From Caldilineaceae bacterium (GTDB taxonomy: Bacteria; Chloroflexota; Anaerolineae; Caldilineales; Caldilineaceae): 64,000 nucleotides of DNA. The stretch spans positions 62,001-126,000 of the forward strand of contig JAGRCP010000080.1 of assembly GCA_020433455.1 (NCBI GenBank). Direction: 5' to 3'. The position numbers and the translations under genes were made by a program. The notes under the pieces are model-generated. The model did not search any database. It was not told the DNA's origin and was given only the letters and a program-made list of their open reading frames with translations. This document shows positions 4,223 through 30,629 of this stretch, one piece after another (position 1 is the first letter of the stretch; each line of letters starts with the position of its first letter).

Positions 4223-7200
4223 ATGTCTCGCCGTTCTTGCTATGTGCTTGTTAACATTCTGTTGGTCGTCGTACTGTTACTGCAAGTCACTATCCCCGTC
4301 TTTGCGGGAAATAGCCATGAAGTCATCACCGAACAAGCGTTCGCCGGGAATACTGAACGATTCAGCGCGCCGGAACTGCCTGGTAAGCAAGGCGAGAGCC
4401 AAGCGCTTCTTAAAGTTCCAGACAGCAACCTTACCGTTCAGCGCCCCCATTCCCGTATGTCGCCGGGTATTTTTCCAACGCGAGAGAACCAGCGCAACAA
4501 TATATCCGTGGAGGGATTATTACCAACGATACCCAATCCGGCTATTGAGATTAGAACGCCCGATTTTCTCGCAACAGCGGCTTGGCATCCAGAGTTACTT
4601 ACATCAATCGGAAATACGCCGACTCAGCAGGATGAACCAATTGATGATCAGCCGGTAGTGAATGAAGGAGCGGATAAGGCATCAGGCTCGTTTAAGATGT
4701 TCCTACCCGTCTTGAAAAACGGTCCTGCAACGCCTGTTTCCCCGCCGCCTCAGCAAGTGACCGATATTCCGTTGAACCCGGGCGTCTTTCGATTCGGCCT
4801 TGATGATGATTCGGTCGCAGATGGTGTTATTGTCACCCAAATCGCACTTGTAAGCACCGCGAATCAAATTCTTCCGTCTAACTTTCTTCCCCAAAGTCCG
4901 CTTGTCCGAGTCGACGGCATTTGGTCGGCAAATGATAGCCAGGTGACCTACCTCGATCCCAGCAGTATTCCCATATTTTCGGAAGATGGCACAAAGCCGC
5001 AGCCAAAGCTTTCACAACGGTTTGCTACCGTACGTTTTGAACTGGAAGACAACTATGACGCCGGCCGCCGCCTGTCAATCGCTTTCCGTGCGCATCATAG
5101 CGCCAAGTGGGAGCTCCTCAGCTCACAACAAAATTCTGAAGCACGCACAATTGAAGCCAGAACCGACAGACTCGGGTCTTTCATTGTGGTTGAAAACACG
5201 GTCTTCAATGCTGACAGTGAACCAGGTGCTGCTAAAGCAGCGTCCGCCCATGCCGGCGTAGAGGTTATCGTTGACGAGCTAGATGCAGGCTTTGCGCATG
5301 AAACAGTGGGCGACGGTGTATTTGAGTCATCAAATTGTACGCCTGACGGTTGTTGGGCCGGGCATGCATTCTATACACTTAATCGCTCACCCTATAATTC
5401 TGGGCCGCTCAACGAGCCGATTGATTGGGGGATTTGGACGCCTACTCTACCTCAACCGGGCACTTATGTTGTTTCAGTGTTCATTCCGGCGCAAGACGCC
5501 TACACATCCGGCGCGCTCTATTATGTCACCCACAATGGCCAGCTTGACGCCTTTGCGGTTAATCAAGCCGTTTATAGCGGTGCGTGGGTTGATTTGGCCG
5601 CATTAGAATTTGCTGCAGACGGGCAGGAAAATGTGATTCTGGAAGATGTTGTTCCGGAACAGAGCATTGCAGCTGTCCGAATCGGCTTTGACGCGATTAA
5701 ATTTACGTTATGTGATGATCCTGCGGCTTGCGACGTCCAGTTCCCGGCCTTGGCGCCGCCGCTCACCGCGGCTCAACTCCAACGCTTACGCGATTTGGGC
5801 ATCCAGCCCTATCAAGTGCGTGGAGCCGATCCGGTTAGCTTCTCAACCGGAAATTACAGTATGGAAGTACCCCTCTTTAGCCTGCCGGGCGTAGGCGATC
5901 AGAGCATCGATATGGACCTGGTCTATAACTCCCAGGACTTCCGTGAAGACCGGCTGGGGTACGGTTGGTCATTCCCCTACAATGCCCGCGCCCAGCATTA
6001 CAGTGACAACTCAGTCAGCATCACGTTGGCAGATGGCCGTACCTATCTCTACACGGCCGATGGTGACGGTTATACGCGGCCTGACGGAGTATTCGCAGAG
6101 CTAACGCGTGAAGATGACGGAAATTTACGGTGGGAAGATCCGTTGGGAACAACCCTTATTTTCACAGAGCACATCTATGGCATCGGCGTTCTAAACACCT
6201 GGATTGACCGCCAAGGCAACGAGCTAACTTTCGAGCATGATCTCAGCGTGCTCTCAAGCTGGCTCTATCCAGACCCGGTTCCGATTCCGCCCTTGCTTTC
6301 TATCACCGATCAAGCCGGTCAGGAGGTAACGTTCGAGTCAGACGACGACGGACACATTACTCAGGCCGAGCTGCCCGACGGTCGGACTTTCCACTTTACG
6401 TATGATGACGAAGCCAATCTGACTGAAATTCAGGACGCGAATGGCGGCACACGTCGCTATGAATACGATGACTCACATCGCATTATCCGTCATTGGGATC
6501 CGGAAAACATCATGTATCTGGAGAACATTTATGACGATGAAGACCGAGTCATCGAACAAATAGATGCCAGCGGGACCCATCTCGACATCAGCTATGATGA
6601 CGATAATAAAATTACTACGTTTACCGATAACCTGGGCAATATAAGCAGATACTACTATGATGACTTGAATCGCGTCATCCAGAGCGAGGATGCGCTAGGG
6701 AATAGTGAACATACCGTTTACGACGATCAGTACAATATTGAGTCCTTTACTGACAAAAACGGCAATACCTGGACCTATACCTACGATGACGCAGGCAACA
6801 TGTTATCGGTTACCGATCCCCTGGGTTATACCACCTACTACGCATACAACGATACCAACGATCTAACCGGCATCATCGATCCGCTAGGTCGCACCACGGC
6901 CTATGAATATAACGAAGACGGCCGTACTACGCGCATCATTTTTCCTGACGGCGTATCCCAAATGGCTGCCTATAATGAGGCCGGGGATATGCTGACCCTG
7001 ACGGATGCCAATGGTCACATCGCGGCATATTTCCATGACTCAACAGGCAATCTGCAGGAAGTGATCGACCCGTTAGGCAATATCACGTCATATGCCTACG
7101 ATGCTACCGGCCGCATGACACAGATGACCGACGCCAACGGCCACAACGCCCAGTTCGTCTACGACGGCAATGACAATGTGACGCGCATTGTGGACCCCAA

Positions 7201-10200
7201 AGGCCAGGCGACGGAGTTTGTCTACGATCTCAATGACAACTTGGTCCAGGTCACAGACCGTCGCGGCGGCGTGATGACCTTCGAGTATGACGAAAACCTT
7301 AAACTCATCAGAGAGACGGACCCCCAAGGCCATAGCACATCTTACGATTATGACCTGATGTACAACCGCATCTCCATGACCGACGCCAATGGCCACACAA
7401 CACTCTATCGCTATGACGATATTTACCAGTTGCTCGAACTGGAAGACGCGTTAGGCAATGTTACAGACTTTGCCTATGACGCCAATGGCAACGTAACCGC
7501 AGTCACCGACGCCCTGAATCAGATCAGCGCGTACGAGTATGATGCGCTGGACCGCCTGGTTATGATGACCGACGCGTTGGGCGGAGAGACGGGCTACGTC
7601 TACGATGAAGTCAGCCGCCTCACCAGCGAGAACAATCCGCGCGGTGCGATCACGCGCTATGAATACGACCTGCGCGACCGCATGGTCAAAACCCTTGACG
7701 CGCTCAACGGCGAATGGACGGCAACTTACGATGCAGTAGGTAATATGCTAAGTACAGCCGACGCCAATGGTCATACCCGTGCCTTCGTTTACGATGCCGC
7801 GGACCGCCTGATCACCGAGACTGACGCGGAGGGCCATGCCACCGGCTATGCGTATGACGGCGTGGGGAATATCGTGACCGTGACCAATCCACGGGGCTTT
7901 GCCACAAACTTCACCTACGACGCCAATGATAACGTGGTCCAAATCACCGATGCACGGGCAGGCATTACCGACTTTGCTTACGACGCGGAAGATAACCTGA
8001 CCGTGATCACTGACCCCGACGGCCATGGTACAAGCTACATCTATGACCTGGACGATTTGGTCATTGCCGTCACCGACGCTGAAAATCAGACGACTGCCTA
8101 CGTCTACGATCCTGTCCACAACGTCACGCAGATGACGAACGGAAACGCCAATGTCTGGAGCTACGCCTATGATGCGCTCAATCGGCCGGTGCTGCAGACC
8201 GATCCGCTCCAGCAGACCCAAGTCTACACCTACGATGAATTGGGACGTCAAACCTCAGTAACAGATGAGAGCGGCGTGGTGACAAACTTCGCCTATGATG
8301 CGCTGGATCGCCTCATCACCCGCACAGAGAATGTGCAGACAGGCGTTACGCCCGACGCCAAAACCAACGTCACAACGGCCTTCTCTTATGATGCAGTAGA
8401 CAATTTGCTGCAGGAGATGGACGGTAACGGCAACCCCACAACCTATGCATATGACCTGCTGGACCGCATGACCCGCAGTGAAAATGCCGAACAGGAAGTC
8501 ACGCTATTTGCCTATGATGCCGTGGGCAATCTGATCACGCTGACCAATCCCCGGGGATATGCCACTAATTTCGCCTATAACAACGACGATCTGCTGGTGC
8601 AGGTGACCGATGCCTTGCTGGGCGTAACCCGCTTCGGCTACGACGCCAACCACAACCGCACGGATATCACTGACGCCAACTTTATCGTGACCCACAGCGT
8701 CTACGATGAACTGGATCGCCTCAGTGCGGAAATCCGCAACCACAAGCCGGGCGAGCCGGGCGACAGCGAGACCAACGTCACCATTGCATACGCCTACAAC
8801 GCCGACAGCACGCTTGCGTCTATGACCGACCCCAACGGCAACCTCACTCGATACGAATATGACGGCATCCACCGCCTTGTCACCGAGACCGACGCGCTGG
8901 ACGGCATGACCCACTACGAATACGATGCGGTGAGCAACCTGCTGGCCCTGATTGACGCCAACGACCACCGCACGTCCTATCAATATGATGCCCTCAATCG
9001 TCAGGTCGCCATGACCGATCCGGAAGCCCACCAGGAAACGTACGGCTATGATCCCGTGGGCAACCTGGTGACTCTCACCAATGGGCGCGGCTTCACCACC
9101 GACTTCGAATACGACAATCTCTATCGCATGACTCGCATGGTGGATGCCAAGGCCGGCACGGTGCTGGCCACCCACGACGCCATGGGCAACGTGCTGAGCC
9201 TGGTCGATCAGAACGGCCATCCCCAGACCTTCGCCTACGATAAGGTCTATCGCGTTCTAAGCCATACGGACGCCGAAGGGTACGTCACGGCCTTCGGCTA
9301 CGACGAGAACGGCAATCGCACGTCTCTCACTGACGGCAACGGGCACCTGACCCAGTACGTCTTTGATGAGCTGGATCGCCTTAGCGCAGTCATCAACGCT
9401 GAGGATGAAACTACATCATTCGTCTATGATCCCGTAGGCAACCAGATCGACATGCGGGAAAATGACGGCGTAGTCACCCACTACGAGTATGATCCTATCT
9501 ACCGCCTCAGCGGCGTCATCCAGAACTATATTCTGCCCGCCCAGGCGGATCACGAAACCAACGTGCCTTATGGTTATGACTACGATGCTAACGGTAACCT
9601 GACCTCCATCACCGATCCCCTGGCCCACATCACCCGCTTCCAGTACGATGCGCTTGACCGCATGGTGCAGGAGGTCAACCCTCTGGACAACGTGTGGGAA
9701 TACGGCTACGACCCGGTGGACAACCTTGTCAGCCGCCTGGATGCCAATGGCGACCTGACCCAATACGCGTACACTGCCGATGGCCTGCCGGCCCGGATCA
9801 GCTATCCCGACGGTACGGGAATTGATTACGCTTATGACGCCAACCACAATCTGGTGGAGATGGTGGACAGCCTGGGGACCAGCACGTGGACCTTCGACGA
9901 ACTGGACCGCATCACCCAGGCCGTGGACGCGCACAACCGGACGCTGGGTTACGCCTATGACCCTGTAGGCAACCGAACTTCCGTCACCTATCCCGACGGC
10001 AACACCGTCACCTACGCCTATCTGGACAACGACTGGCTGCGTCGAGTGGAGCTGCCCGATGACCAGTGGACCGAGTACGCCAAGGACGGCGTGGGGCTGA
10101 CCACCAGCATCGTCAACAGCAACAGCACGGTGACCGAGCAGAGCTATGACAAAGCCAACCGCATGCTGAGCACCGCCACTGTGCAGACCAGCGGCGCGCA

Positions 10201-12313
10201 GAAGACCGTCAGCAGCTTCCAGTACACGCTGGACGATGTTGGGCAGCGCATTCAAACCGTGGCCGAATACGGCTGGCGCAACCCGCCGGTTGTGACCACG
10301 GACTACACCTATGATCCCATTCGCCGGTTGGTTCGTTCACAGACCGATGAGGGCGTCTGGACACAATATGGTTTTGACGCCGCGGGCAATCGTCTTTCAT
10401 TACAGACCAACGACGACGCGCTCTCGCCCAAGCCTTTTGACGAGCAGACGCTGAGCTACACCTACAACGACGCCAACCAGCTCCTCAGCGTGCTGGATGA
10501 GACGAGCGGCAGCAACGGCCAGCCCCAGAAAGAGAACGACAAGGCGGCCCAGGCTCTCTACGCCCTGCGCCATGAGATTGCAGCCCAGCGGGGCAAGCAC
10601 ATCAGCGAGAACGCGGCCGACGCACTCACGGCGGCCATCGATAGCCTGCTGGCCGATCTGGCCGCACCCAAGCCGCCCAAGAGCAACGAGCTTGCTGCGA
10701 GCATCGCCGATCTGAGCGACCAGGTGCAGGCCTACCGCGCGTCGGGCGACATCGACAACGACGGCATTGCCAACAGCCTGCTGGCCAAGCTGGACAAGGC
10801 CGGCCAGGCCGTGAGCGGCGGCAACGGCAATGGCGACGATCTCCAGGCCCAGCTCTTCACCTATGACGCCAACGGCAATCGCATCAACGAAACCTGGCCC
10901 GGCCCCCAAGGTCCGCCCATCCAGGGAACCGACTACGCCTACGATTACGAGAATCGCCTGATTCAGGCCCTCAACTATCAGGGCGACCGGGTTGACCGGG
11001 ACGTTACCACCATGCAGTACGACGGCCTCTTCCGCCGCCTGACCAAGAGCTACGATCCCAAGCAGGGGAACGGCGGCATCAAGACCACCGAAACCCTCTT
11101 CGACGGCCTGGACCCGGTGGCCGAGTACAGCCTCTGGAACGGTCAGTACGCCGACTTCTACCGCGGCGATCTTAACCGCATGGTTGCCATGCAGAGCTAT
11201 CCCAGCAGCCAAATGGACTGGTACACCTATGACGGTCTGGGCTCCGTCACTGGGTTGACCGGCCACGGTGGCCAGAGCGTCCACGACTATCGCTACACCG
11301 ACTACGGACTGGTCGCGCCGGTCAACGGCAACTGGACCGAGCCCCACAACCAATATACCTACACCGGCCAGGAATGGGACAACGAGACGGAACTGCTCCA
11401 CTTCTACGCCCGGGACTACGATCCGGTCACCGGCGTGTGGATGCAGCAGGATGTGTATCGGGGTCGGTTGGCAGAGCCGATGACATTGCATCGATATGGG
11501 TATGTTGGTGGGAATCCGGTATCCTCTTTCGATTATTATGGCTACGTTATTTGCGGCGGGGCATGTATTGGCGCAGCTATTGTTATTGGAGCAAAAGCGC
11601 TTGACTACGGCTGGACAGCCTATGATATCTGGCAAGCCCAAAGGACTTTGTCGAGTGACACGGCTTCCAACGAAGAAAAGATACTTGCGGCTTTCGATTT
11701 AGTATTAGCGGGGGCATTTGAGGGAATTGAGCCGGATGACCTAACCCCAATCGGTGTTCCGCTTGATGATGTGGCACGAAAACTTGCCATGAAGCAAATA
11801 AAAAAGGAGATCAAAGAGAACGGTGTCGAGAGTGGAATAAGAAAGGCAAGAGAGTTATTTGGCGACAAGGTTGACGATGTTTTGCAGAAAGCTGGTCTAC
11901 ATTCTGGTAACACCGCAGCGCGCTATCTCCAAAAAAGTGTGGATGATCTATTGCAAGGCGGACACGCTATCCAACGGCATGGACCTCAAGTCTCGAAGCA
12001 ATTCCTTATTGATCGATTAAAAAAGGGCGAGATACCGGTAGCTTCAAAATTCAAGTCCAAAACAAGCATGACTGATAGCATTCGGAAAGTCCTAGATGGC
12101 AATAGCTCCGAAATTTTAGATTGGGCAACTTGGTCAAGCAGCGGCCAAAGAAAGGTGTTTGAGTTAGATACCGGAACCACCATTGGTGATGGATACAAAC
12201 TTTTACATGATGGGCAGGCAGCTATTCAGGTAGATATGAGCAAAATCAAAGTTGTTTTAGAATCTAAAGGTGACGGAGGATGGTTTATCGTAACCGCTTT
12301 TCCTATACCATGA
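4223..12313 (+). CDS. Secreted RHS/YD-repeat polymorphic toxin with RNase A-like C-terminal domain
   Basis: 2696 residues. The ATG at 4223 is chosen because AGGAGGAG lies just upstream and a Sec signal peptide follows (hydrophobic core, then VFAG). Visible order: an N-terminal region to about 345; a golvesin-C-like beta domain, about 346-497 (W.P.LP..G.Y, GAWVDLA); the RHS entry segment DPVSFSTGNY; dozens of ~21-residue YD repeats from about 720; a non-YD helical insert, about 2091-2212; then the RHS core end HFYARDYDPVTGVWMQQD (about 2393-2410). After NPVSSFDYYGY comes a variable tip. Its last ~118 residues (GGHAIQRHG, SKF, VVLE, GWFIVTAFP) match the pattern of the bacterial CdiA-CT RNase A domain, so tRNA/RNA cleavage in a competitor cell is inferred. 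The tip and the next gene are AT-rich unlike the core, a sign of module exchange. Confidence 0.93.
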   Translation: MSRRSCYVLVNILLVVVLLLQVTIPVFAGNSHEVITEQAFAGNTERFSAPELPGKQGESQALLKVPDSNLTVQRPHSRMSPGIFPTRENQRNNISVEGLLPTIPNPAIEIRTPDFLATAAWHPELLTSIGNTPTQQDEPIDDQPVVNEGADKASGSFKMFLPVLKNGPATPVSPPPQQVTDIPLNPGVFRFGLDDDSVADGVIVTQIALVSTANQILPSNFLPQSPLVRVDGIWSANDSQVTYLDPSSIPIFSEDGTKPQPKLSQRFATVRFELEDNYDAGRRLSIAFRAHHSAKWELLSSQQNSEARTIEARTDRLGSFIVVENTVFNADSEPGAAKAASAHAGVEVIVDELDAGFAHETVGDGVFESSNCTPDGCWAGHAFYTLNRSPYNSGPLNEPIDWGIWTPTLPQPGTYVVSVFIPAQDAYTSGALYYVTHNGQLDAFAVNQAVYSGAWVDLAALEFAADGQENVILEDVVPEQSIAAVRIGFDAIKFTLCDDPAACDVQFPALAPPLTAAQLQRLRDLGIQPYQVRGADPVSFSTGNYSMEVPLFSLPGVGDQSIDMDLVYNSQDFREDRLGYGWSFPYNARAQHYSDNSVSITLADGRTYLYTADGDGYTRPDGVFAELTREDDGNLRWEDPLGTTLIFTEHIYGIGVLNTWIDRQGNELTFEHDLSVLSSWLYPDPVPIPPLLSITDQAGQEVTFESDDDGHITQAELPDGRTFHFTYDDEANLTEIQDANGGTRRYEYDDSHRIIRHWDPENIMYLENIYDDEDRVIEQIDASGTHLDISYDDDNKITTFTDNLGNISRYYYDDLNRVIQSEDALGNSEHTVYDDQYNIESFTDKNGNTWTYTYDDAGNMLSVTDPLGYTTYYAYNDTNDLTGIIDPLGRTTAYEYNEDGRTTRIIFPDGVSQMAAYNEAGDMLTLTDANGHIAAYFHDSTGNLQEVIDPLGNITSYAYDATGRMTQMTDANGHNAQFVYDGNDNVTRIVDPKGQATEFVYDLNDNLVQVTDRRGGVMTFEYDENLKLIRETDPQGHSTSYDYDLMYNRISMTDANGHTTLYRYDDIYQLLELEDALGNVTDFAYDANGNVTAVTDALNQISAYEYDALDRLVMMTDALGGETGYVYDEVSRLTSENNPRGAITRYEYDLRDRMVKTLDALNGEWTATYDAVGNMLSTADANGHTRAFVYDAADRLITETDAEGHATGYAYDGVGNIVTVTNPRGFATNFTYDANDNVVQITDARAGITDFAYDAEDNLTVITDPDGHGTSYIYDLDDLVIAVTDAENQTTAYVYDPVHNVTQMTNGNANVWSYAYDALNRPVLQTDPLQQTQVYTYDELGRQTSVTDESGVVTNFAYDALDRLITRTENVQTGVTPDAKTNVTTAFSYDAVDNLLQEMDGNGNPTTYAYDLLDRMTRSENAEQEVTLFAYDAVGNLITLTNPRGYATNFAYNNDDLLVQVTDALLGVTRFGYDANHNRTDITDANFIVTHSVYDELDRLSAEIRNHKPGEPGDSETNVTIAYAYNADSTLASMTDPNGNLTRYEYDGIHRLVTETDALDGMTHYEYDAVSNLLALIDANDHRTSYQYDALNRQVAMTDPEAHQETYGYDPVGNLVTLTNGRGFTTDFEYDNLYRMTRMVDAKAGTVLATHDAMGNVLSLVDQNGHPQTFAYDKVYRVLSHTDAEGYVTAFGYDENGNRTSLTDGNGHLTQYVFDELDRLSAVINAEDETTSFVYDPVGNQIDMRENDGVVTHYEYDPIYRLSGVIQNYILPAQADHETNVPYGYDYDANGNLTSITDPLAHITRFQYDALDRMVQEVNPLDNVWEYGYDPVDNLVSRLDANGDLTQYAYTADGLPARISYPDGTGIDYAYDANHNLVEMVDSLGTSTWTFDELDRITQAVDAHNRTLGYAYDPVGNRTSVTYPDGNTVTYAYLDNDWLRRVELPDDQWTEYAKDGVGLTTSIVNSNSTVTEQSYDKANRMLSTATVQTSGAQKTVSSFQYTLDDVGQRIQTVAEYGWRNPPVVTTDYTYDPIRRLVRSQTDEGVWTQYGFDAAGNRLSLQTNDDALSPKPFDEQTLSYTYNDANQLLSVLDETSGSNGQPQKENDKAAQALYALRHEIAAQRGKHISENAADALTAAIDSLLADLAAPKPPKSNELAASIADLSDQVQAYRASGDIDNDGIANSLLAKLDKAGQAVSGGNGNGDDLQAQLFTYDANGNRINETWPGPQGPPIQGTDYAYDYENRLIQALNYQGDRVDRDVTTMQYDGLFRRLTKSYDPKQGNGGIKTTETLFDGLDPVAEYSLWNGQYADFYRGDLNRMVAMQSYPSSQMDWYTYDGLGSVTGLTGHGGQSVHDYRYTDYGLVAPVNGNWTEPHNQYTYTGQEWDNETELLHFYARDYDPVTGVWMQQDVYRGRLAEPMTLHRYGYVGGNPVSSFDYYGYVICGGACIGAAIVIGAKALDYGWTAYDIWQAQRTLSSDTASNEEKILAAFDLVLAGAFEGIEPDDLTPIGVPLDDVARKLAMKQIKKEIKENGVESGIRKARELFGDKVDDVLQKAGLHSGNTAARYLQKSVDDLLQGGHAIQRHGPQVSKQFLIDRLKKGEIPVASKFKSKTSMTDSIRKVLDGNSSEILDWATWSSSGQRKVFELDTGTTIGDGYKLLHDGQAAIQVDMSKIKVVLESKGDGGWFIVTAFPIP
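10495..10860 (+). other. FIMAH-like helical insert inside the RHS repeat barrel
   Basis: About 120 residues without YD repeats interrupt the array. The first part (AAQRGKHISENAADALTAA) resembles the C-terminal half of FIMAH-type modules. The second part (SGDIDNDGIANSLLAKLDKA) resembles their N-terminal half, so the halves appear in swapped order. The match is from memory of the family pattern, not from a search. Confidence 0.45.
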
Positions 12314-12324
12314 TTGAGACTTTC

Positions 12325-12374
12325 TGATATAATGTTTAAACCTCGTGCTTGTCAACCAAGTACGAGGTTTAAAC
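12325..12374 (+). promoter_or_regulatory. Extended -10 promoter and 18-bp hairpin between toxin and immunity genes
   Basis: An extended -10 (TG at 12325, TATAAT at 12328-12333) is followed at once by an inverted repeat of two 18-nt arms (12334-12351 and 12357-12374) with a 5-nt loop and one G-U pair. No T-run follows, so it is not a standard terminator. It ends 28 nt before the immunity ATG and could give that gene its own expression or protect its mRNA. Confidence 0.55.
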
Positions 12375-12402
12375 ATGCGAATCGTTTGTTTGAGTGAACA
12401 CA

Positions 12403-12861
12403 ATGTCTCATAATTCAAAGTATATACATGAAAAAATTATCCGCCGTTCGCAAACTGGCAGTTATTGTTTGACTCTCGACCTTAATGAAATATTAATCTG
12501 TGTAAATAAATATGTTGTTTCAATTGGGTTTATCTCTATTGGAAATAGCTGGATCGAGATATCAAGAGATGATGCACGAAAAACCTTGCAATACCTCTTG
12601 AAATATGACATAGCATATTCGCTACCAATACGCAATGATGAGCAAGTTGAACAAGAGATAGAAAGTTTCTTTCAAGAATTTGAAGAAGATTGTCGATACT
12701 TTTCTAATGGTGATTGGTTTAGGATTGATAAGGATTCTGTCACTAATGCTGCAAAGTCGATTGCAACATGGTCCCCTCTTTCATCTTCAGCATTCGATGG
12801 TGGTGTCGTCGGCATATGTCGTAATTATATAGGTTTGATTTGGATCAAGAGTAATGATTAA
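12403..12861 (+). CDS. Probable immunity protein for the RHS RNase A-like toxin
   Basis: 152 residues from ATG 12403; a GTG at 12394 would add three residues, and neither start has a strong ribosome site. I recognise no family. The protein is acidic, lacks a signal peptide or membrane segment, and is rich in Trp, Asp and Glu, as expected of a cytoplasmic inhibitor of a basic nuclease tip. The assignment rests on position: it lies 89 nt downstream of a polymorphic toxin, on the same strand, with the same AT-rich composition as the toxin tip. Confidence 0.65.
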   Translation: MSHNSKYIHEKIIRRSQTGSYCLTLDLNEILICVNKYVVSIGFISIGNSWIEISRDDARKTLQYLLKYDIAYSLPIRNDEQVEQEIESFFQEFEEDCRYFSNGDWFRIDKDSVTNAAKSIATWSPLSSSAFDGGVVGICRNYIGLIWIKSND

Positions 12862-13433: not shown

Positions 13434-14301
13434 TTAGAAGCTGTTTGAAAAGTAGCGGCTGTCAGCCAAGTCGTGGAAAATGTTGTGTTTGTGAAGACGC
13501 AACGATATCCAACCGACTTAACTGACAGCCAGTGGAACATTATCCAGGATCTGATTCCACCGGCCAAACCTGGGGGAAGACCACGCAGCTTGGATATGCG
13601 TGAAGTGGTGAACGGAATTCTGTACGTAACAATCAGTGGAATTCAATGGCGCATGTTGCCGCACGATTTTCCAGCATGGCGGAGCGTGTATGAGTATTTC
13701 TACCGATGGCGAGACGACGGGACCTGGCAACGCATTCACGACACGTTGCGAGCAAGAGTTCGCCAAAAAGAAGGTCGACACAAACATCCAACGGCAGGAA
13801 GTATAGACAGCCAAACTGTCAAAACAGGCGTGACGCCGTCCGGGATTCGTGGTTTCGACGGCGGCAAGCTCACCACTGGACGCAAACGTCATATTCTGGT
13901 GGATACGAATGGGCTTTTGCTTGCTGTTTTAGTCACAGCCGCATCTGTCCAGGACCGAGACGGCGCTCGCTTGCTGCTTCAATCGCTAGCCGGTTTCTGC
14001 AAAAAGTTACGTATCATTTGGGTCGACGGTGCTTATCGAGGTCCACTTCAGGATTGGGTCGCCCAAAACTTTTGGTTTCGTCTCGTCCCTGTTCTCAGGC
14101 CTGAGGGTGCCAAAGGCTTTTCCCTCTTGCCTCGCCGATGGGTTGTAGAACGCACCTTTTCATGGCTTGGTCTCAATCGACGGCTTGTCAGGGATTATGA
14201 GCGACTGCCCGCCAGCAGCGAAGCCTTCATTCATATTGCTATGATTCGGCTTATGATTCGACGTCTTGAGCCTACCTAACACCTTTTCAAACAGCTTCTT
14301 A
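13434..14301 (+). mobile_element. Complete IS5-family (IS1031-like) insertion sequence with TTA target duplication
   Basis: The element spans 13437-14298 (862 bp). Perfect 16-bp terminal inverted repeats (13437-13452, GAAGCTGTTTGAAAAG, and its complement at 14283-14298) are flanked by a direct repeat TTA (13434-13436 and 14299-14301). A TNA target and a single transposase frame fit the IS1031 group. Matching ends and an open transposase suggest recent insertion and possible activity. Confidence 0.9.
13473..14279 (+). CDS. IS5-family DDE transposase
   Basis: 268 residues, full length and uninterrupted, from GTG 13473 (GTG 13485 is an alternative). An N-terminal insertion-element domain (LTDSQWNIIQDLIPP) precedes the DDE catalytic core: first Asp in GSIDSQTVKT, second in IWVDGAYRG, and Glu in VVERTFSWLGLNRR. 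The stop lies 19 nt before the right end of the element. It cuts and joins the element's 16-bp ends. It is the only gene of the element. Confidence 0.94.
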   Translation: MENVVFVKTQRYPTDLTDSQWNIIQDLIPPAKPGGRPRSLDMREVVNGILYVTISGIQWRMLPHDFPAWRSVYEYFYRWRDDGTWQRIHDTLRARVRQKEGRHKHPTAGSIDSQTVKTGVTPSGIRGFDGGKLTTGRKRHILVDTNGLLLAVLVTAASVQDRDGARLLLQSLAGFCKKLRIIWVDGAYRGPLQDWVAQNFWFRLVPVLRPEGAKGFSLLPRRWVVERTFSWLGLNRRLVRDYERLPASSEAFIHIAMIRLMIRRLEPT

Positions 14302-14678: not shown

Positions 14679-17057
14679 ATGAACGAAGCTGATACTTGCC
14701 GCATGTTAGTTGAACCGAAACTGCGTGACGCCGGCTGGGAGACGCCGCCTTATTCGGTCCTCTCCCAACCCGTTATCGCGCCGGGGCGGATCGTGCCCCA
14801 GGGCAAGAGAGCCAAACGCCGGGACGCTCAGCGGCCCGACTATCTGCTCCGCTACGCTCCCCACCTGACCGTGGCCGTGGTCGAGGCCAAGCGGGACACA
14901 TTGCCGCCGGATCGGGGCCTGCAACAGGCCAAGGAATACGCGGAGAAGCTGGGGCTCAAGTTCGCCTACGCCACCAACGGCAACAAAATCGTCGAGTTCA
15001 ACTACCTCACCGGACGCGAGCGGGTGCTCGATACATTTCCCACGCCCGCTGAACTGTGGGGTTGGCTCTACCAGGGCCAGTCCGCCGAAATTGAGGAGGG
15101 GCTGCTCACGCCCTACTACCGCTTCCCCAACATGGACGCGCGCTATTACCAGGAGATCGCGATCAACCGGACGGTCCAGGCGATCCTGGGCGGGCAGCGC
15201 CGGGCGCTGCTGACCATGGCCACCGGCACCGGCAAGACCTTTGTCGCCTTCCAGATCTGCTGGCGGCTCTGGGAGAGTCGCTGGAACGCTGCCGGTGAAC
15301 ACCGCCGCCCCAAAATTCTCTATCTGGCCGACCGCAACATTTTGGTCGACGATCCCAAGGACAACCGCTTCATTCCCTTTGGCGACGCCCGCCACAAGAT
15401 CGAGGGCGGCCGGGTGATCAAGAGCCGGGACATCTATTTTGCCATCTATCAGGCAATCGCCCGGGATGAAAACCGCCCCGGTCTCTACCGGGAGTACGCG
15501 CCCGATTTCTTCGATCTGATTATCGTGGATGAGTGCCACCGGGGCAGCGCGCGGGATGACAGCAACTGGCGCGAGATTCTGGACTACTTCGCGCCCGCCT
15601 ACCAGATCGGCATGACGGCCACGCCCCTGCGCGAGGACAACCGGGATACCTATCGCTACTTCGGCAACCCGCTCTATACCTATAGCCTGCGCCAGGGCAT
15701 CGAGGACGGCTTTCTCGCGCCCTATCGGGTGCGCCAGGTGGTCTCCGACGTGGACGCGCTGGGCTGGCGGCCCTATGCGGGACAGACGGACATGCACGGA
15801 GAGGCGATCCCCGATGAAGTCTTCCAGACCAAGGATTTCGAGCGGGTCCTGGTGCTCAAAGAACGCACCGCGGCCATTGCCCGTCACCTGACCGACTATC
15901 TCAAGGAGAACGGTCGCTTCGGCAAGACCATCGTCTTCTGCGTGGATCAGGAGCACGCCGGCGTCATGCGCCGGGAACTGGCCAATCTCAACGCCGACCT
16001 GATACGGCGCGACCCGGACTACGTGGTCCGCATTACTTCGGAGGAAGGGGACATCGGCCGCGGTCATTTGGGCCGCTTCAAGGATCCGGAGCGGGAGACG
16101 CCCGTGATTGTCACCACCTCCAAGCTCCTGACCACCGGCGTGGATATTCCTACCTGCAAAAACGTAGTGCTGGTGCGGGTCATCAACAGCATCACCGAGT
16201 TCAAGCAGATTATCGGTCGGGGAACCCGGGTGCGCGAGGAGTACGGCAAGCTCTTCTTTACCATCATCGACTACACCGGCTCAGCCATGCAGCGCTTTGC
16301 CGACCCGGACTTTGACGGCGAGCCGCTGGAGATCACCGCGGTGGAGATGGACGCGGCCGGTAACACTGTAGCCGAGGCGGAGGTGACAACCCTCTCTCCC
16401 CTTGAAGAGGAGTCTGCGTTCGGGAACGCAACCGCTGAGGGAAGCTGGCGCGTGATCGGCGAAGGCGATGGTGCAGACGGTGAGGCGCGCAAGTACTACG
16501 TGGACGACGGCCGGGTGGAGATTGTGGCCGAGATGGTCTACACCCTGGATGCCGACGGGCGACGCTTGCAGGCTCTCAGCTATACCGAGTATGCCGAACA
16601 GACCATGCGGACGCTCTACAACTCCCGGGTCGAGTTTCAGCACGGCCTGGCCGAGAGCGCACAGCGACGCAAGATCGTCGCAGCCCTGGCCGACCGGGGC
16701 GTCGATTTGGATGAATTGCGTCGGGTGGCCGACCAGCCTGACGCCGACCCCTTCGACCTGCTCTGCTATCTGGCCTACGGCGGCCCGCTCTACACCCGGC
16801 GGGAGCGGGCCGAACGGCTGCGTCGCAACCGGCAAGACTTTTTTGAGCGGTACGGCCCCGAGGCCCGGGCCGTGCTCAGCGATCTGCTGGACAAGTATGT
16901 GGAGCACGGCATGGCCCAATTCTCGCTACCCGATCTGCTCAAGGTGCCGCCGATCTCCACACGTGGCAATATCGTCGAGATCGCCCGCTACTTTCACGGC
17001 GGAGAAGGGCTCTATCAAGCCGTCGATCAAATGCAGACGCTGCTGTATGCAGCGTAG
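14679..17057 (+). CDS. hsdR: Type I restriction enzyme, R (endonuclease/translocase) subunit
   Basis: 792 residues. It combines an N-terminal PD-(D/E)xK nuclease (Asp in RPDYLL near residue 52, VEAK near 68-71) with SF2 helicase motors: Walker A ATGTGKT near 178, DECH near 282, motif III MTATPL, and a C-terminal arginine-finger motif in IIGRGTRVREE. The C-terminal ~180 residues resemble the EcoEI-type R-subunit tail. With HsdM and HsdS it translocates and cuts DNA whose target lacks methylation. It is first in an operon. A 9-nt gap carrying a ribosome site leads into an unrelated Tat-protein gene instead of hsdM, which is odd. A decayed copy of two of its segments is found at 22726-22834. Confidence 0.95.
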   Translation: MNEADTCRMLVEPKLRDAGWETPPYSVLSQPVIAPGRIVPQGKRAKRRDAQRPDYLLRYAPHLTVAVVEAKRDTLPPDRGLQQAKEYAEKLGLKFAYATNGNKIVEFNYLTGRERVLDTFPTPAELWGWLYQGQSAEIEEGLLTPYYRFPNMDARYYQEIAINRTVQAILGGQRRALLTMATGTGKTFVAFQICWRLWESRWNAAGEHRRPKILYLADRNILVDDPKDNRFIPFGDARHKIEGGRVIKSRDIYFAIYQAIARDENRPGLYREYAPDFFDLIIVDECHRGSARDDSNWREILDYFAPAYQIGMTATPLREDNRDTYRYFGNPLYTYSLRQGIEDGFLAPYRVRQVVSDVDALGWRPYAGQTDMHGEAIPDEVFQTKDFERVLVLKERTAAIARHLTDYLKENGRFGKTIVFCVDQEHAGVMRRELANLNADLIRRDPDYVVRITSEEGDIGRGHLGRFKDPERETPVIVTTSKLLTTGVDIPTCKNVVLVRVINSITEFKQIIGRGTRVREEYGKLFFTIIDYTGSAMQRFADPDFDGEPLEITAVEMDAAGNTVAEAEVTTLSPLEEESAFGNATAEGSWRVIGEGDGADGEARKYYVDDGRVEIVAEMVYTLDADGRRLQALSYTEYAEQTMRTLYNSRVEFQHGLAESAQRRKIVAALADRGVDLDELRRVADQPDADPFDLLCYLAYGGPLYTRRERAERLRRNRQDFFERYGPEARAVLSDLLDKYVEHGMAQFSLPDLLKVPPISTRGNIVEIARYFHGGEGLYQAVDQMQTLLYAA

Positions 17058-17066
17058 GAGCACGCT

Positions 17067-17909
17067 ATGTCTTTGTCCAGAAGAGAGCTCATCGGCCTGT
17101 CTGCCGGATCAATTGCAGGCGGCCTTCTGTCGGTGGGTCATTTGAATGCAAGTCAGGACACAGCGTTTGCCAAGCTCTCAGATAAGCAATATGGCGGCTC
17201 GGATCTGGCAGGCTGGACCACTATTGTGGGTGACGGCATCTATGCCGCACCCGGCGAATCGCCTGTCACCGAGCAAGATATCGAAACAATACACAATAGG
17301 ACATACAGCGACCTTCGGGCCAACCTGCTTGAGCGACGCATCATGGCTCATAACCTCAGCTTTCACCGCATCAACGACCCTGCCGCGTTTGATTTCGTGC
17401 ATACTGCCGGCTATCGTTTTCGGCTACCTTCGGAACTTTTTTCCCCGTCGTTGGAGGCGCAGACTTTGGAAGGCGGTCTGGCCGTTTGGGACGGGGCGCA
17501 GAGCAGGCTGGATTATCACGTGTTTTTCCAATGGCGCCTTAACCGTTACGACGATGTCTATAAGGAAGTTGCCACCTGGACTGTGGCCGACGACGGTTCA
17601 TGGCAGCCGGTCGGCTATCTGGAACCGGATGATCAATGGCATGATTTTCAGGTGATCGTGGATTTCTCGCGCAAGACGGCCGCGCTTACCATTGACGGTG
17701 TTCCCCTTCCGACCTGCATTGCAGGCACGCCCAAACCCGCTTCGTGGGGATCGGAGATCAGCGCCCGGCTACACGCCGAAATCATCAGCATCTATCCCGG
17801 ACCAGCGGGAGAGGGGAAGTTACACAAAGCACACTTCAAAGATTGGTATTGGCAATGGCAATCCTCTGACGCTTGCCGAGTCCATCTACCCATGGTCGCC
17901 AATCCATAG
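17067..17909 (+). CDS. Tat-exported beta-rich protein of unknown function, embedded in the hsd operon
   Basis: 280 residues from ATG 17067, with AGGAGCA just upstream. The N-terminus SLSRRELIGLSAGSIAGGLL is a textbook twin-arginine signal, so the folded protein should be exported. The rest is rich in aromatic residues and beta strands. A segment with WHDFQVIVDF and AALTIDGVPLP resembles a concanavalin A-like (LamG-type) jelly-roll strand pair, which I infer only from the pattern. It ends in VHLPMVANP, a short hydrophobic tail. It lies 9 nt after hsdR and 28 nt before the likely hsdM start, on the same strand, so it is probably co-transcribed with the restriction genes although it acts outside the cytoplasm. 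No catalytic motif is recognised. Confidence 0.8.
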   Translation: MSLSRRELIGLSAGSIAGGLLSVGHLNASQDTAFAKLSDKQYGGSDLAGWTTIVGDGIYAAPGESPVTEQDIETIHNRTYSDLRANLLERRIMAHNLSFHRINDPAAFDFVHTAGYRFRLPSELFSPSLEAQTLEGGLAVWDGAQSRLDYHVFFQWRLNRYDDVYKEVATWTVADDGSWQPVGYLEPDDQWHDFQVIVDFSRKTAALTIDGVPLPTCIAGTPKPASWGSEISARLHAEIISIYPGPAGEGKLHKAHFKDWYWQWQSSDACRVHLPMVANP

Positions 17910-17937: not shown

Positions 17938-19509
17938 TTGGCACGCACACGCAATAGCGCTTCCAAAGCGCCCAAAACCAGCGCAACCCAACTACGCAGC
18001 ATCGTCAAATCTGCGCGCGACGTCATGCGCAAGGACAAGGGTCTGAGCGGCGATCTCGATCGCCTGCCCATGCTCACCTGGATCATGTTCCTCAAATTTC
18101 TTGACGACATGGAGAACATCCGCGTGGTGGAGGCGACCCTGGCCGACACCCATTACCAACCGGTCATCGTTGCGCCCTATCGCTGGCGCGACTGGGCCGG
18201 CCGGCCCGACGGCATCAGCGGCGACGATCTCAAGGCCTTCATCAATCAGGACGAGTGTGTGCGTCCTGACGGCAGCCGGGGACCGGGGCTCTTCAAATAT
18301 CTACGCGGCCTTCAGAGCAGCGACGGTCACGGGAGAGAAGAGATCATCGCGACTGTCTTCCGGGGCGTCAACAACCGCATGGAGAGCGGCTACCTGCTGC
18401 GCGATGTGATCAACCTCATCAACGACATTCGTTTCGATTCGTCGGAAGAGATCCACGTCCTCAGCCACCTGTACGAGACCATGCTGCGCGAGATGCGCGA
18501 CGCCGCGGGCGATTCGGGCGAGTTTTACACGCCCCGGCCGGTGGTCCAGCTCATGGTCGCGGCCACCGATCCCCGCCTGGGCGAGACGGTGCTGGACCCG
18601 GCCTGCGGCACCGGCGGGTTTCTGGTAGAAGCCTATACCCACATGGCAGACCAGTGTGAAACCGGCGAAGATCGCCGTCTGTTGCAGGAAAGTATCGTGG
18701 GCGGCGAGGCCAAGCCTCTGCCCTACTTGCTGGGAGAGATGAACCTGCTCTTGCACGGCATGGATTCGCCCAGCATTGCCTACGGCAACAGCCTGGCCCA
18801 ACCGTTAACCGGTATTGGCGATGGTCAGCGGGTGGACGTAATCCTGACCAACCCGCCCTTCGGCGGCGAGGAGGAGCGGGGCATTCTGGGCAACTTCCCC
18901 GAGGATCGCCAGACCGCGGAGACGACCCTGCTTTTCCTGCAGGTGATCATGCGCCGGCTGCGGCGGGCCGGCGCGGGTGCGGATCGGGGCGGCCGGGCCG
19001 CGGTGGTCGTGCCCAACGGCGCCCTCTTCGGCGACGGCGTGGCCGCGCGCATCAAGGAAGAGCTGCTCAAGGAGTTCAACCTGCATACCGTCGTGCGTCT
19101 GCCCAACGGCGTCTTTGCACCCTATACCAACATCCCCACCAATCTGCTCTTCTTCGAACGAGGCGGGCCCACCGGGACGATTTGGTATTACGAGCACCCG
19201 CTGCCCGAAGACCGCAAGAACTACACCAAAACCAAACCGCTGCGCTACGAGGAATTCAAGCCGCTACTCACCTGGTGGCATGATCGTCACGAGACCGAGC
19301 AGGCATGGCGGGTATCGGCGGATGACGTGCTCGTGTATGACGATGACGGGGGAGTGGTATCAGTAAATCTGGACATCAAGAATCCAAACAGCGACGACTC
19401 GTTCCAGAACATGCCGCCCGGGCAACTGGTAGACGAAATAGTTGCAAAGGAGCAGCGGATCCTCATTTTAATGGATGAAATCCGCTCAGCTTTGGCGGAG
19501 TCGTACTGA
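17938..19509 (+). CDS. hsdM: Type I restriction-modification DNA methyltransferase (M subunit)
   Basis: N6-adenine methyltransferase of a type I system. The start is put at TTG 17938, after the preceding gene's stop; 523 residues result. The frame is open further upstream to ATG 17692, but that part overlaps the Tat gene and looks unlike HsdM. Visible are the helical N-terminal domain (MLTWIMFLKFLDDME), the SAM-binding motif I DPACGTGGFLVEAY, and the catalytic NPPF in VILTNPPFGG. The C-terminus ends in a coiled helix that usually docks on HsdS. The TGA stop overlaps the hsdS ATG by one base (TGATG), implying coupled translation. The complex would be M2S, or R2M2S with HsdR. Confidence 0.94.
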   Translation: MARTRNSASKAPKTSATQLRSIVKSARDVMRKDKGLSGDLDRLPMLTWIMFLKFLDDMENIRVVEATLADTHYQPVIVAPYRWRDWAGRPDGISGDDLKAFINQDECVRPDGSRGPGLFKYLRGLQSSDGHGREEIIATVFRGVNNRMESGYLLRDVINLINDIRFDSSEEIHVLSHLYETMLREMRDAAGDSGEFYTPRPVVQLMVAATDPRLGETVLDPACGTGGFLVEAYTHMADQCETGEDRRLLQESIVGGEAKPLPYLLGEMNLLLHGMDSPSIAYGNSLAQPLTGIGDGQRVDVILTNPPFGGEEERGILGNFPEDRQTAETTLLFLQVIMRRLRRAGAGADRGGRAAVVVPNGALFGDGVAARIKEELLKEFNLHTVVRLPNGVFAPYTNIPTNLLFFERGGPTGTIWYYEHPLPEDRKNYTKTKPLRYEEFKPLLTWWHDRHETEQAWRVSADDVLVYDDDGGVVSVNLDIKNPNSDDSFQNMPPGQLVDEIVAKEQRILILMDEIRSALAESY

Positions 19510-20702
19510 TGGTCGATTGGCAGCAGTCCACCCTTGGTCGTGTCCTTACAAAGGCAAATGAATGGACCGAAATTGCGCCTAATACACTGTACAAGCAAGT
19601 TACGGTAAAACTATGGGGTAAAGGCGTTGTTCTTCGCAGAGAAGTCCAAGGCAGCCAGATCGCAGCCAAACGTCAACGTGTCGTGAGCCCTGGACAATTT
19701 ATTCTTTCTCGAATTGATGCAAGAAACGGCGCTTTCGGTCTGGTTCCGGAAGAGCTGGCCGGAGCAATCGTTTCCAATGATTTCCCCTCTTTTCGAATCG
19801 ACGCCGACAAGCTAATGCCCGAATATTTGGCTTGGCTCAGCAAAACGAGCGAATTTGTCGAACTTTGCCAATTAGCAAGTGAGGGCACAACCAATCGTGT
19901 GCGTCTGCAAGAGGATCGCTTTCTACAATTGACCATCCCCCTCCCGCCATTGGACGAGCAGCGGCGCATCGTCGCGTGCGTCGACGCGCTGGCCGCCCGC
20001 ATTGCCGAAGCCCAGGCTCTGCGGTCCCAGGCCCTGGCCGAGGCGGAGGCCGTGATGGGGGCGGCCGCCGATAGACTATTTTCGGGCGGTAATTGGCCCA
20101 CTGCTAGTGTTGATGAGATTGTTGGGCGGAAGAATCTGCGCAATGGGAAATCCGCTAAACCAACGTCCGGTATTTCAGATATTCGCTGTTTGAGATTGTC
20201 TGCATTGAGGAATGGCCGTATTGACTGCACTGATGCAAAATCTGTGCCAATTCATCGTGATGACGCTGAACCGTATTTCGTCAAACCTGGCGATGTTTAC
20301 GTCGTGCGGGGAAACGGTAGCCTTGATCTGGTTGGACGAGCCGGGATAATTGATAACATTGTCGATGATCTAATTTTCCCTGACTTGTTCATCAAAGTGC
20401 CACTACAAGATACGCCATTAATGCCCGAATTCTTTGTTAGATGGTGGAATAGTGCTCACATGCGAAGCAAAATTAAAGCCGCGGCCAAGACTACTTCTGG
20501 AATCTGGAAAATAAATCAAGGGCACATTTCTTCATTTATGGTACCGCTGCCAAGCGTTACGGAACAACGCCGTATCGTCGCGCATCTCGACGTGCTCCAA
20601 GCAAAAGTGGACGCGGTCAAGGATCTGCAAGCCGCCACCCAGGCCGAGCTGAACGCGCTCCTGCCCGCCGTGCTGGATCGGGCGTTTAAGGGAGAGCTGT
20701 AG
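19509..20702 (+). CDS. hsdS: Type I restriction-modification specificity subunit
   Basis: 397 residues with two target-recognition domains (about 1-140 and 190-345). Each is followed by a conserved helical spacer: IPLPPLDEQRRIVACVDAL and VPLPSVTEQRRIVAHLDVL, ending in the paired LF.G and AFKGEL signatures. The two half-sites give a bipartite target that cannot be read from sequence alone. The target-recognition domains are more AT-rich than the conserved helices, the usual mosaic of exchanged specificity domains. It is translationally coupled to hsdM and last in the operon. Confidence 0.95.
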   Translation: MVDWQQSTLGRVLTKANEWTEIAPNTLYKQVTVKLWGKGVVLRREVQGSQIAAKRQRVVSPGQFILSRIDARNGAFGLVPEELAGAIVSNDFPSFRIDADKLMPEYLAWLSKTSEFVELCQLASEGTTNRVRLQEDRFLQLTIPLPPLDEQRRIVACVDALAARIAEAQALRSQALAEAEAVMGAAADRLFSGGNWPTASVDEIVGRKNLRNGKSAKPTSGISDIRCLRLSALRNGRIDCTDAKSVPIHRDDAEPYFVKPGDVYVVRGNGSLDLVGRAGIIDNIVDDLIFPDLFIKVPLQDTPLMPEFFVRWWNSAHMRSKIKAAAKTTSGIWKINQGHISSFMVPLPSVTEQRRIVAHLDVLQAKVDAVKDLQAATQAELNALLPAVLDRAFKGEL

Positions 20703-22277: not shown

Positions 22278-22766
22278 TTGCTTATGTCCCATACTCCCTC
22301 ACCTTCCATCTATCTGGACCATTCGGCCACCACGCCCGTGCGGCCTGAAGTGATGGCGGCCATGGAGCCGTATTTTGCCGAATTTTACGGCAACCCCAGC
22401 AGCATCCATGCCGTGGGGCGGCGCAGCGGCGCGGCCCTGACCCGGGCCCGGCGCACGGTGGCCGAACTGCTCCACGCCCGGCCCGGCGAGATCATCTTTA
22501 CCGGTTGCGGCACGGAGAGCGACAATGCTGCCTTGCGGGGCATGGCCCTGGCCCGACGCGCCGACACCGGAGCGGATCGCCTCATCACCCTGCCCATCGA
22601 GCACAAAGCCGTCCTCTACACCGCCCAGGACTTGCGCGATCATTTCGGTTTCCGCCTCACCCTCGTTCCTGTAGACGCGACCGGGCGCGTGGCCGCGGCT
22701 GACGTTATTGCCGCGCTGGGCGACGGGGACACCTACCGCTACTTCGGCAACACTCTATACCTATAG
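22278..22766 (+). pseudogene. Truncated cysteine desulfurase (NifS/IscS-like), 5' fragment
   Basis: The first ~150 codons encode a normal class V aminotransferase N-terminus (YLDHSATTPVRPEVM, YGNPSSIHAVGR, IIFTGCGTESDNAALRG, IEHKAVL). Just after AALGDGDT the reading becomes YRYFGNTLYL and stops, and that tail is hsdR sequence. The PLP-binding lysine and the active-site cysteine, both in the missing C-terminal ~230 residues, are absent, so it cannot be functional. A normal family member has about 380-400 residues. It starts 3 nt after vapC, and its 3' part is nowhere in the window. Confidence 0.88.
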
Positions 22767-22834
22767 GACATGCATGGAGAGGCGATCCCCGATGAAGCCC
22801 TCCAGACCAAGGATTTCGAGCGGGTGTTGGTGCG
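22726..22834 (+). pseudogene. Decayed fragment of an hsdR gene fused to the cysteine desulfurase remnant
   Basis: 22726-22766 resembles hsdR 15643-15685 (ACCTAYCGCTACTTCGGCAA and onward, with a 2-nt deletion). 22766-22833 resembles hsdR 15788-15855 (CCAGACCAAGGATTTCGAGC within it) with few mismatches. The 102 nt between those segments of hsdR are missing. It is a remnant of another hsdR copy, or of gene conversion with the nearby one. Confidence 0.85.
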
Positions 22835-29000: not shown

Positions 29001-30629
29001 ATGCTTCAGACAATGTCCCGCCGGGCGCTGGCCCTGCTTGTCGTCAGCTTCGCCCTGCTGCTGACGGCGTGCGCCATGCCCGCCGCGCCGACCACTGACG
29101 CCGGCGACGGTGCAGACGCCGCACCCATGGCCGCCGAAGGTCCCGGTACGGCCCAGGTTGTGTACGATCTGCCCGATTTGGCCGGTCGCACCATTGTAGC
29201 GGCCATGGCCAACGATTACACGCCCTTCCAGTTTGTTGACCCAGCGTCGGGCGAGGCCGTCGGCTGGGAATACGACGCCATGTACGAAATCTGTCGCCGC
29301 CTCAACTGCACGATTGACTGGCAAACCAGCGCCTGGGAAACCATGATCCCCGCGGTGGCTGAGGGTCAGTTCGACATGGGCATGGACGGCATCACCATCA
29401 CTGAAGAGCGGGCCCAGCAGGTGGACTTCTCCGACCCCTACATCAACTCCCAGCAGTTCATGCTGGTGCGGGCGGGCGAGGATCGTTTCGCCGCGCCGGA
29501 GGACTTTGCCGCGGATGAGGCGCTGCTGGTGGGTGCGCAGGCAGGCACCACCGGCTTCTACACCGCGGTCTACGATATTCTGGACGGCGACGAGGCCAAT
29601 CCCCGCATCAAGCTTTTCGACAATTTTGGGGCTTCGGTTCAGGCGCTGCTCAACGGCGACGTGGACCTGGTGCTGGTGGATGCGGCGTCGGGTCGGGGCT
29701 ACATCGGAGCCAATCCCGATGCGCTGGAGATTGTGGGCGATGCCCTCACCTCGGAAGAGTTCGGCTTCATCTTCACGCCCGGCTCGGACCTGGTCGATCC
29801 CGTTAACGCCGCCATTGCCTCCATGCAGGCTGACGGCTATCTGGAATACCTGAACACCAAGTGGTTCTTCCTCACCGATCCCAACGGTGAAGACGTCTAT
29901 GATGCGCTGCCGGATTTGGCGGGTCGCACCATTGTGGCAGCCATGGCCAACGACTACACGCCCTTCCAGTTTGTTGACCCAGCGTCGGGCGAGGCCGTCG
30001 GCTGGGAATACGACGCCATGTACGAAATCTGCCGCCGCCTCAACTGCACGATTGACTGGCAGACCAGCGCCTGGGAAACCATGATCCCCGCGGTGGCTGA
30101 GGGCCAGTTCGACATGGGCATGGACGGCATTACCATCACCGAAGAACGAGCCCAGCAGGTGGATTTCTCCGCTCCCTACATCAACTCCCAGCAGTTCATG
30201 CTGGTGCGGGCGGGCGAGGACCGTTTCGCCGCGCCGGAGGACTTTGCCGCGGATGAGGCGCTGCTGGTGGGTGCGCAAGCAGGCACTACCGGCTTCTACA
30301 CCGCGGTCTACGATATTCTGGACGGCGACGAGGCCAATCCCCGCATCAAACTTTTCGATAATTTTGGGGCTTCGGTTCAGGCGCTGCTCAACGGCGACGT
30401 GGACCTGGTGCTGGTGGATGCGGCGTCGGGTCGGGGCTACATCGGAGCCAACCCCAATGCGCTGGAGATTGTGGGCGACGCCCTCACCTCGGAAGAATTC
30501 GGCTTCATCTTCACGCCCGGCTCAGACCTGGTCGATCCCGTCAACGCCGCCATTGACTCACTTACCCAGGACGGCTATCTGGAATACCTGAATACCAAGT
30601 GGTTCTTTGAGTACGATCCGAGCAGCTAA
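29001..30629 (+). CDS. Lipoprotein with two near-identical amino-acid-type solute-binding domains
   Basis: 542 residues from ATG 29001, preceded by AGGAGG. The lipobox LLTAC puts the lipidated cysteine at residue 24. Two complete SBP_bac_3 domains follow, offset by exactly 738 nt (246 residues). Both begin DLAGRTIVAAMANDYTPFQF and end YLEYLNTKWFF. They differ at only a few residues, such as SDPYI in the first and SAPYI in the second, and NPDALEI and NPNALEI. The family binds polar amino acids for ABC import. No permease or ATPase gene is adjacent, so the transporter partner is elsewhere or the protein acts as a sensor. A strong terminator ends the single-gene transcript. Confidence 0.93.
   Translation: MLQTMSRRALALLVVSFALLLTACAMPAAPTTDAGDGADAAPMAAEGPGTAQVVYDLPDLAGRTIVAAMANDYTPFQFVDPASGEAVGWEYDAMYEICRRLNCTIDWQTSAWETMIPAVAEGQFDMGMDGITITEERAQQVDFSDPYINSQQFMLVRAGEDRFAAPEDFAADEALLVGAQAGTTGFYTAVYDILDGDEANPRIKLFDNFGASVQALLNGDVDLVLVDAASGRGYIGANPDALEIVGDALTSEEFGFIFTPGSDLVDPVNAAIASMQADGYLEYLNTKWFFLTDPNGEDVYDALPDLAGRTIVAAMANDYTPFQFVDPASGEAVGWEYDAMYEICRRLNCTIDWQTSAWETMIPAVAEGQFDMGMDGITITEERAQQVDFSAPYINSQQFMLVRAGEDRFAAPEDFAADEALLVGAQAGTTGFYTAVYDILDGDEANPRIKLFDNFGASVQALLNGDVDLVLVDAASGRGYIGANPNALEIVGDALTSEEFGFIFTPGSDLVDPVNAAIDSLTQDGYLEYLNTKWFFEYDPSS
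29166..30629 (+). repeat. 738-bp in-frame tandem duplication within the binding-protein gene
   Basis: Unit 1 (about 29166-29903) and unit 2 (about 29904-30629) are nearly identical at the DNA level, including synonymous sites, with an offset of 738 nt. The duplication is recent or kept uniform by gene conversion. Confidence 0.92.

Follow-up and report, generated by a model that had tools for sequence, protein, structure and literature searches.

Organization of the hsd Operon

The window analyzed here, a 64,000-nt stretch of a contig from a Caldilineaceae bacterium (Chloroflexota), carries a complete EcoAI-type restriction-modification operon with the gene order R-M-S. The hsdR gene (14679..17057, + strand) encodes a 792-aa type I restriction subunit of the EcoAI/FtnUII family with the Pfam domains ResIII and EcoEI_R_C; its match to NCBIfam NF046051 (1.9e-298) reaches 992 bits against a cutoff of 550, and it is a full EcoAI-type R subunit. 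The type I DNA adenine methyltransferase of 523 aa (Pfam N6_Mtase, 2e-61) is encoded by hsdM (17938..19509, +), whose TTG start at 17938 has the same position in two related operons (L055 and L056). It is followed by hsdS (19509..20702, +), encoding a 397-aa specificity subunit recognized by Pfam (Methylase_S) and PADLOC (Specificity_I). A gene for an IS4/5-type transposase (13473..14279, +; Pfam DUF4096 and DDE_Tnp_1) is located 400 nt upstream of hsdR.

Inside this operon, between the subunit genes hsdR and hsdM and in the same direction, lies the gene of a 280-aa protein (17067..17909, +), referred to here as P0001, which bears a Tat signal and is predicted to form a ConA-like, lectin-like jelly roll. 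The gene is present in a single copy in the genome, consists of 280 codons with an ATG start and is separated by exactly 9 nt from hsdR and by 28 nt from hsdM. Its putative ribosome-binding site, (A)GGAG (17056..17060, +), overlaps the hsdR stop codon and ends 6 nt before the ATG. The spacings, the common strand and the separate ribosome site are as described in a first-pass annotation of this DNA. The same site lies in the loop of a 5-bp hairpin (AGCGT-AGGAGC-ACGCT, 17051-17066) situated over the hsdR stop. A search of the insert for terminators and promoters returned none, the sole weak terminator prediction being this hairpin over the ribosome site, and because neither element is visible, hsdR, the P0001 gene and hsdM are likely to be read from one transcript.

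Other parts of the window hold features of their own. The region 4139-12861 encodes a 2724-aa RHS-repeat protein with a C-terminal CdiA-CT RNase A toxin domain and, after it, a 155-aa ORF (12394-12861) with no Pfam match at the position where an immunity protein would be expected. At 22278-22833 there is a truncated cysteine desulfurase gene (138 of 371 profile positions), the end of which is fused to an hsdR relic. Two segments of this relic align with the intact gene, 22723-22766 with 15640-15685 (87%) and 22766-22833 with 15788-15855 (93%), and from these matches the stretch 22723-22833 is read as the remnant of another hsdR that has been lost and that carries a deletion inside the remnant. 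A recent tandem duplication (29169-29869 and 29907-30607, 95% over 704 nt) and an old one (54764-56531 and 56933-58700, 67% over 1.8 kb) were also observed.

The P0001 Family, Its Export Signal and Predicted Fold

We found that P0001 is a member of an unnamed, predicted Tat-exported family, 36–56% identical and sparse across Chloroflexota. Since homologues with this degree of identity occur in other genera, the ORF is not a chance one. Of the 222 genera sampled in its own class, whole-genome searches detected the family in 9 (own genus included), and a second class yielded it in 2 genera out of 78; within its own taxonomic family, only 2 of 17 genera possess it. Three weak matches (L010-L012, E 1e-5 to 6e-4), which are partial or doubtful, were excluded from this count, and searches of the classes of genomes G639 and G502, both made over one set of 158 genomes, brought in no further lineage. 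No relative was found by P0001 scans of genome contigs and viral contigs or by tblastn against plasmids and phages, and the family was thus not seen among the phages and plasmids searched. P0001 has no family match in Pfam, NCBIfam, PADLOC or PHROGs and no convincing sequence match in the PDB; the PADLOC comparison, which tests for known anti-phage defence proteins, gave 0 families.

An alignment of 15 family sequences contains 39 invariant columns, and the conserved W, H, D, E, N and R residues suggest a working site. Many members end with a short LPxh tail (e.g., HLPMVANP, FLPFVR, YLPIVLG, FLPTVSR), located at 17879-17906 in the window and present also in L013, L014, L015 and L030 to L033; it is possibly a surface-protein motif in the phylum. 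As a general sorting motif the tail was rejected: it occurs in 11 of 350 ORFs against 1.5 in shuffled sequences, but 8 of the 11 belong to the P0001 family. Similar strings were noted at the end of an unrelated 845-aa ORF in L014 (IFLPVIAR) and inside the RHS protein of the window (KMFLPVLKNG).

The N-terminus of P0001 reads MSLSRRELIG and continues into a hydrophobic stretch; the signal region with its twin-arginine motif SRRELIG comprises residues 1-35 (17067..17171, +) and is disordered in the structural model. Among the 14 homologues aligned, all 13 whose N-terminus lies in open frame have RR or RK in the corresponding position, and the Pfam TAT_signal profile matches three of the 15 aligned family members, P0001 not being one of the three. 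TatC is encoded in the genome. The features by which a Tat substrate was judged (twin-arginine motif, hydrophobic region and a Tat translocase in the genome) are therefore all present, and we infer that P0001 is exported by the Tat pathway. The clear twin-arginine signal noticed in the first-pass annotation is supported by this conservation and by the presence of TatC.

AlphaFold2, run on the 15-sequence alignment, returned a model with a mean pLDDT of 83 and a pTM of 0.80, in which residues 1-33 are disordered and residues 38-269 (17178..17873, +; pLDDT mostly >90) form a two-sheet jelly roll of about 230 residues, as in the ConA-like lectin/glucanase fold. A jelly roll had already been suspected from the sequence, and the prediction agrees. 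Foldseek gave 249 matches at E<=0.001, among which glucanases, lectins and alginate lyases reached E values of around 1e-6. The best structural match is the BT_1020 sialidase (VIA Z 15.4, 3.5 Å over 172 residues), followed by the sialic-acid-binding domain of the Vibrio cholerae sialidase (VIA Z 13.9) and, with Z about 13, by numerous legume lectins. Overall, the sialidase binding domains (2w68 and that in 5mqr) and the legume lectins (2eig, 2pel) share the jelly roll over residues 38-269, the full span of the structural alignments, with Z of 13–15. In sequence P0001 is unlike them: identity to the structural matches is 6–11%, and none of the sequence databases named above links the two. The structure predicted for P0001 is thus a jelly roll of the concanavalin-A type, similar to the carbohydrate-binding domains of sialidases and to legume lectins; taken with the export signal, this fold points to an extracytoplasmic role in carbohydrate binding or processing. 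PL7 alginate lyases and GH16 enzymes were both among the fold matches, but no enzyme was assigned. The SELR stretch of P0001 resembles what we take to be a PL7 motif; other family members do not conserve its R, for which reason no PL7 assignment was made.

Genetic Context of P0001 Homologues

The context of 14 homologues from 10 lineages was examined over 3.7–18 kb. None of the 14 loci, some on short contigs, contained hsdR, hsdM or hsdS (blastp 1e-4; tblastn E<=1). The lone tblastn match, a 56-residue methylase motif at E 0.009 in L015, is explained by a type IIG-like methylase. Neighbors differ between most lineages and include purL, a thioredoxin gene with an MFS transporter gene, response regulators with a cyclase, panE with a seryl-tRNA-synthetase-like gene, and glycosyltransferase-like genes (the last two names given partly by eye). 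Where two homologues come from one genus, they share their context, as would be expected of resident genes. The context is incomplete for six of the 14 homologues (L013, L014, L015, L018, L030 and L031), whose contigs end within ~1.3 kb of the gene; the contig ends may reflect repeats adjoining it.

No defence gene was found among the examined neighbors in nine of the 10 other lineages. The remaining one is L015 (3-8543): close to the homologue, opposite-strand genes encode a DrmMI/type IIG-like methylase and a DrmD-like helicase, and a tyrosine recombinase gene lies to its other side. There is a small chance that this proximity to DISARM/type IIG-like genes reflects a defence role of the family.

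As one of two options, the first-pass annotation had proposed that P0001 could be secreted and work at the envelope as a component of the restriction system, and it named homologues in random contexts only among the outcomes that would speak against such a link. A type I subunit would be expected to recur with hsdR, hsdM or hsdS in unrelated genomes, and this was seen in 0 of 14 other loci, some of them on short contigs. None of the homologues lies between hsdR and hsdM, and their contexts are unrelated; the outcome named against the proposal is largely what is seen, and the proposal is not supported.

The hsdR-hsdM Junction in Related Operons

The junction could be read in 13 other related R-M operons of the same class and in 34 of other phyla, mostly Proteobacteria. 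Seven of the 13 same-class operons carry unrelated inserts of about 0.7–2 kb at this place: DUF433 with DUF5615 (L055), a Y1/REP-type transposase (L056), a second one assigned by resemblance with no Pfam match (L062), an OLD-like AAA ATPase (L057), DUF559 within repeats (L063), a MazE-like gene with PIN (L064) and GmrSD/DUF262 (L067). Only 57–150 bp separate the two genes in the remaining six. The closest readable relatives of the window operon (HsdM 75–80% identical) possess cargo unlike that of the window and unlike each other's. As would be expected at the insertion point of an rlo-type gene, related hsd operons therefore carry either other genes (7/13) or none (6/13) at the junction, the empty state being deduced from systems whose HsdR identity is well under 70%.

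In the other phyla hsdR and hsdM usually overlap by about 4 bp, and inserts were found in five of 34 operons. They encode a DUF6236-like protein (L082:5864-6967), GmrSD with SIR2-like and HerA-like proteins between hsdR and hsdM of a Desulfovibrio type I operon (L085:2049-7001), a nucleotidyltransferase with a small partner (L094:5903-6995), a HEPN protein (L095:6312-6986) and a pair with DUF5131 (L099:5288-6888). In L085 a SIR2-HerA pair is thus nested inside a restriction operon, and the inserts of L082, L094, L095 and L099, of little-known function, are candidates for new defence genes. Since differing inserts are held by 7/13 operons of the class and 5/34 of other phyla, the hsdR-hsdM junction is a slot filled repeatedly with different genes.

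Composition and Divergence of the Inserted Gene

The P0001 gene has a GC/GC3 of 0.55/0.60, as compared with 0.63/0.81 for hsdR and 0.62/0.78 for hsdM. The low GC3 is suggestive of a separate origin; it is no clean marker, and composition stays only suggestive, because hsdS is likewise low (0.52/0.52). No target duplication was seen at the insert, and a single 11-nt inverted repeat (16975-16985/18049-18059) lies inside coding sequence, with ~0.2 expected by chance (an estimate).

P0001 is placed on a long branch. Of 47 columns in which every other lineage agrees, it departs from eight (I97, T98, N130, T146, G151, P160, W161 and G166), whereas the other lineages depart from 0–5. Such divergence would fit changed or relaxed constraint after a move, and could also represent a new specificity.

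Discussion

The window operon corresponds to EcoAI/EcoEI-type (type IB) systems of the order R-M-S, all three subunits matching in order and family, and differs from them in that an additional gene keeps R and M 880 nt apart. Insertion of genes into type I operons has been described before. The type I loci of Campylobacter jejuni are reported to carry unrelated, strain-variable ORFs between hsd genes, the rlo and mlo genes, with rloF belonging to DUF262/GmrSD (Miller et al., 2005, via PMC5183652, PMC4619093, PMC2610378). The rloF family also occupies the hsdR-hsdM slot of L067 and L085. In Campylobacter the insertion points are the hsdR-hsdS and hsdS-hsdM junctions, whereas the P0001 gene, the order being R-M-S, is found between hsdR and hsdM and not between hsdR and hsdS. 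It works like an rlo insert, although it does not count as rlo under the strict Campylobacter definition. It further differs from rlo cargo in having an export signal and no defence-family match; we found no exported rlo product in the cited papers. The other precedent is prrC, embedded in the EcoprrI type IC operon much as the P0001 gene is in its own, and encoding an anticodon nuclease that is cytoplasmic and held by the restriction complex (PMC3874165, PMC12707154); PrrC is invariably linked to type IC systems (PMC2610378), whereas P0001 bears a signal for export and belongs to a family with no other link to hsd genes. The earlier statement that no type I system with such a part is described thus holds for an exported product, of which we found no description in the cited papers, and fails for inserted genes as such, known from rlo/mlo and prrC. 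The arrangement is of a known kind; its exported, not obviously defensive cargo is unusual.

We consider it quite probable that the P0001 gene is a passenger in the hsdR-hsdM junction slot of a type I restriction operon, because its homologues reside in unrelated contexts and the junction holds other unrelated genes in related operons. The gene would have landed in a slot whose unrelated contents change between related operons, and is probably transcribed with the operon. Its product, with the signal seen and TatC present, would be exported folded by the Tat pathway and, judging by the predicted ConA-like jelly roll, may act outside the membrane in binding or processing carbohydrate. P0001 would do its own job and not serve as a subunit of the restriction enzyme; for the gene, the benefit of the slot may lie in operon expression at an insertion point harmless to hsdR and hsdM. 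That it might be a passenger had been offered as an alternative in the first-pass annotation, and this alternative is favored by the unrelated contexts of homologues and by the other genes, or none, at the junction of related R-M operons. Some observations speak against it. The tight spacings of 9 and 28 nt and the overlapped ribosome site look settled rather than fresh. The slot is not neutral, since many of the other cargo genes are defence or toxin genes, and the homologue in L015 has DISARM/type IIG-like genes nearby, albeit on the other strand.

A rival reading is an envelope partnership, in which an exported lectin-like protein would coat or modify surface glycans and lower phage adsorption, giving an outer layer of defence from the same transcript. 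The position of the gene within the operon in the shared direction, the frequent defence-type content of the slot (GmrSD, SIR2-HerA, OLD-like, toxin-antitoxin) and L015, which adjoins the DrmMI/type IIG-like methylase, DrmD-like helicase and integrase genes, would suit it. We nevertheless regard it as unlikely, as the family does not recur with type I systems, nine of 10 other lineages lack a defence gene among the examined neighbors, P0001 has no PADLOC match and the operon copy has lost family-invariant residues. A slightly less likely version is that P0001 was recruited as an envelope-side glycan-binding accessory, so that one transcript would provide both a phage-adsorption barrier and an intracellular DNA barrier, with L015 as a second instance. 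About as improbable as the envelope partnership is that the insert matters mainly as a regulatory spacer, separating the translation or transcription of hsdR from that of hsdM and lowering one relative to the other. The 880 nt in the window operon, set against an overlap of about 4 bp in proteobacterial relatives, and the diverse inserts tolerated at one place would agree with a spacer; on the other hand, insert length and sequence are not conserved, six of 13 class relatives have only 57–150 bp, and the intact reading frame, signal and fold of P0001 would be unneeded for mere spacing.

Two further readings have very little probability. P0001 might be a guard or effector of the PrrC type, sensing inhibition of the restriction enzyme and acting on the cell, for which prrC provides the precedent of a gene embedded in a type I operon; the Tat signal, however, would put P0001 outside the cytoplasm where HsdRMS works, its predicted fold is a jelly roll and not an ATPase or nuclease, and the family does not recur with hsd genes. 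An artefact of assembly or gene calling could be suspected in a draft assembly of 172 contigs, but it is hardly credible for a window well inside a 147-kb contig, with tight gene spacing at both junctions and a product that is a conserved family member.

With the passenger reading preferred, the locus illustrates that operon position can mislead: a gene can be tightly packed within a defence operon without being part of it. In the EcoAI-type hsdR-hsdM slot, toxin-antitoxin, GmrSD, SIR2-HerA, HEPN and OLD-like genes make up most of the contents, and screening this junction could be a simple route to new defence genes.
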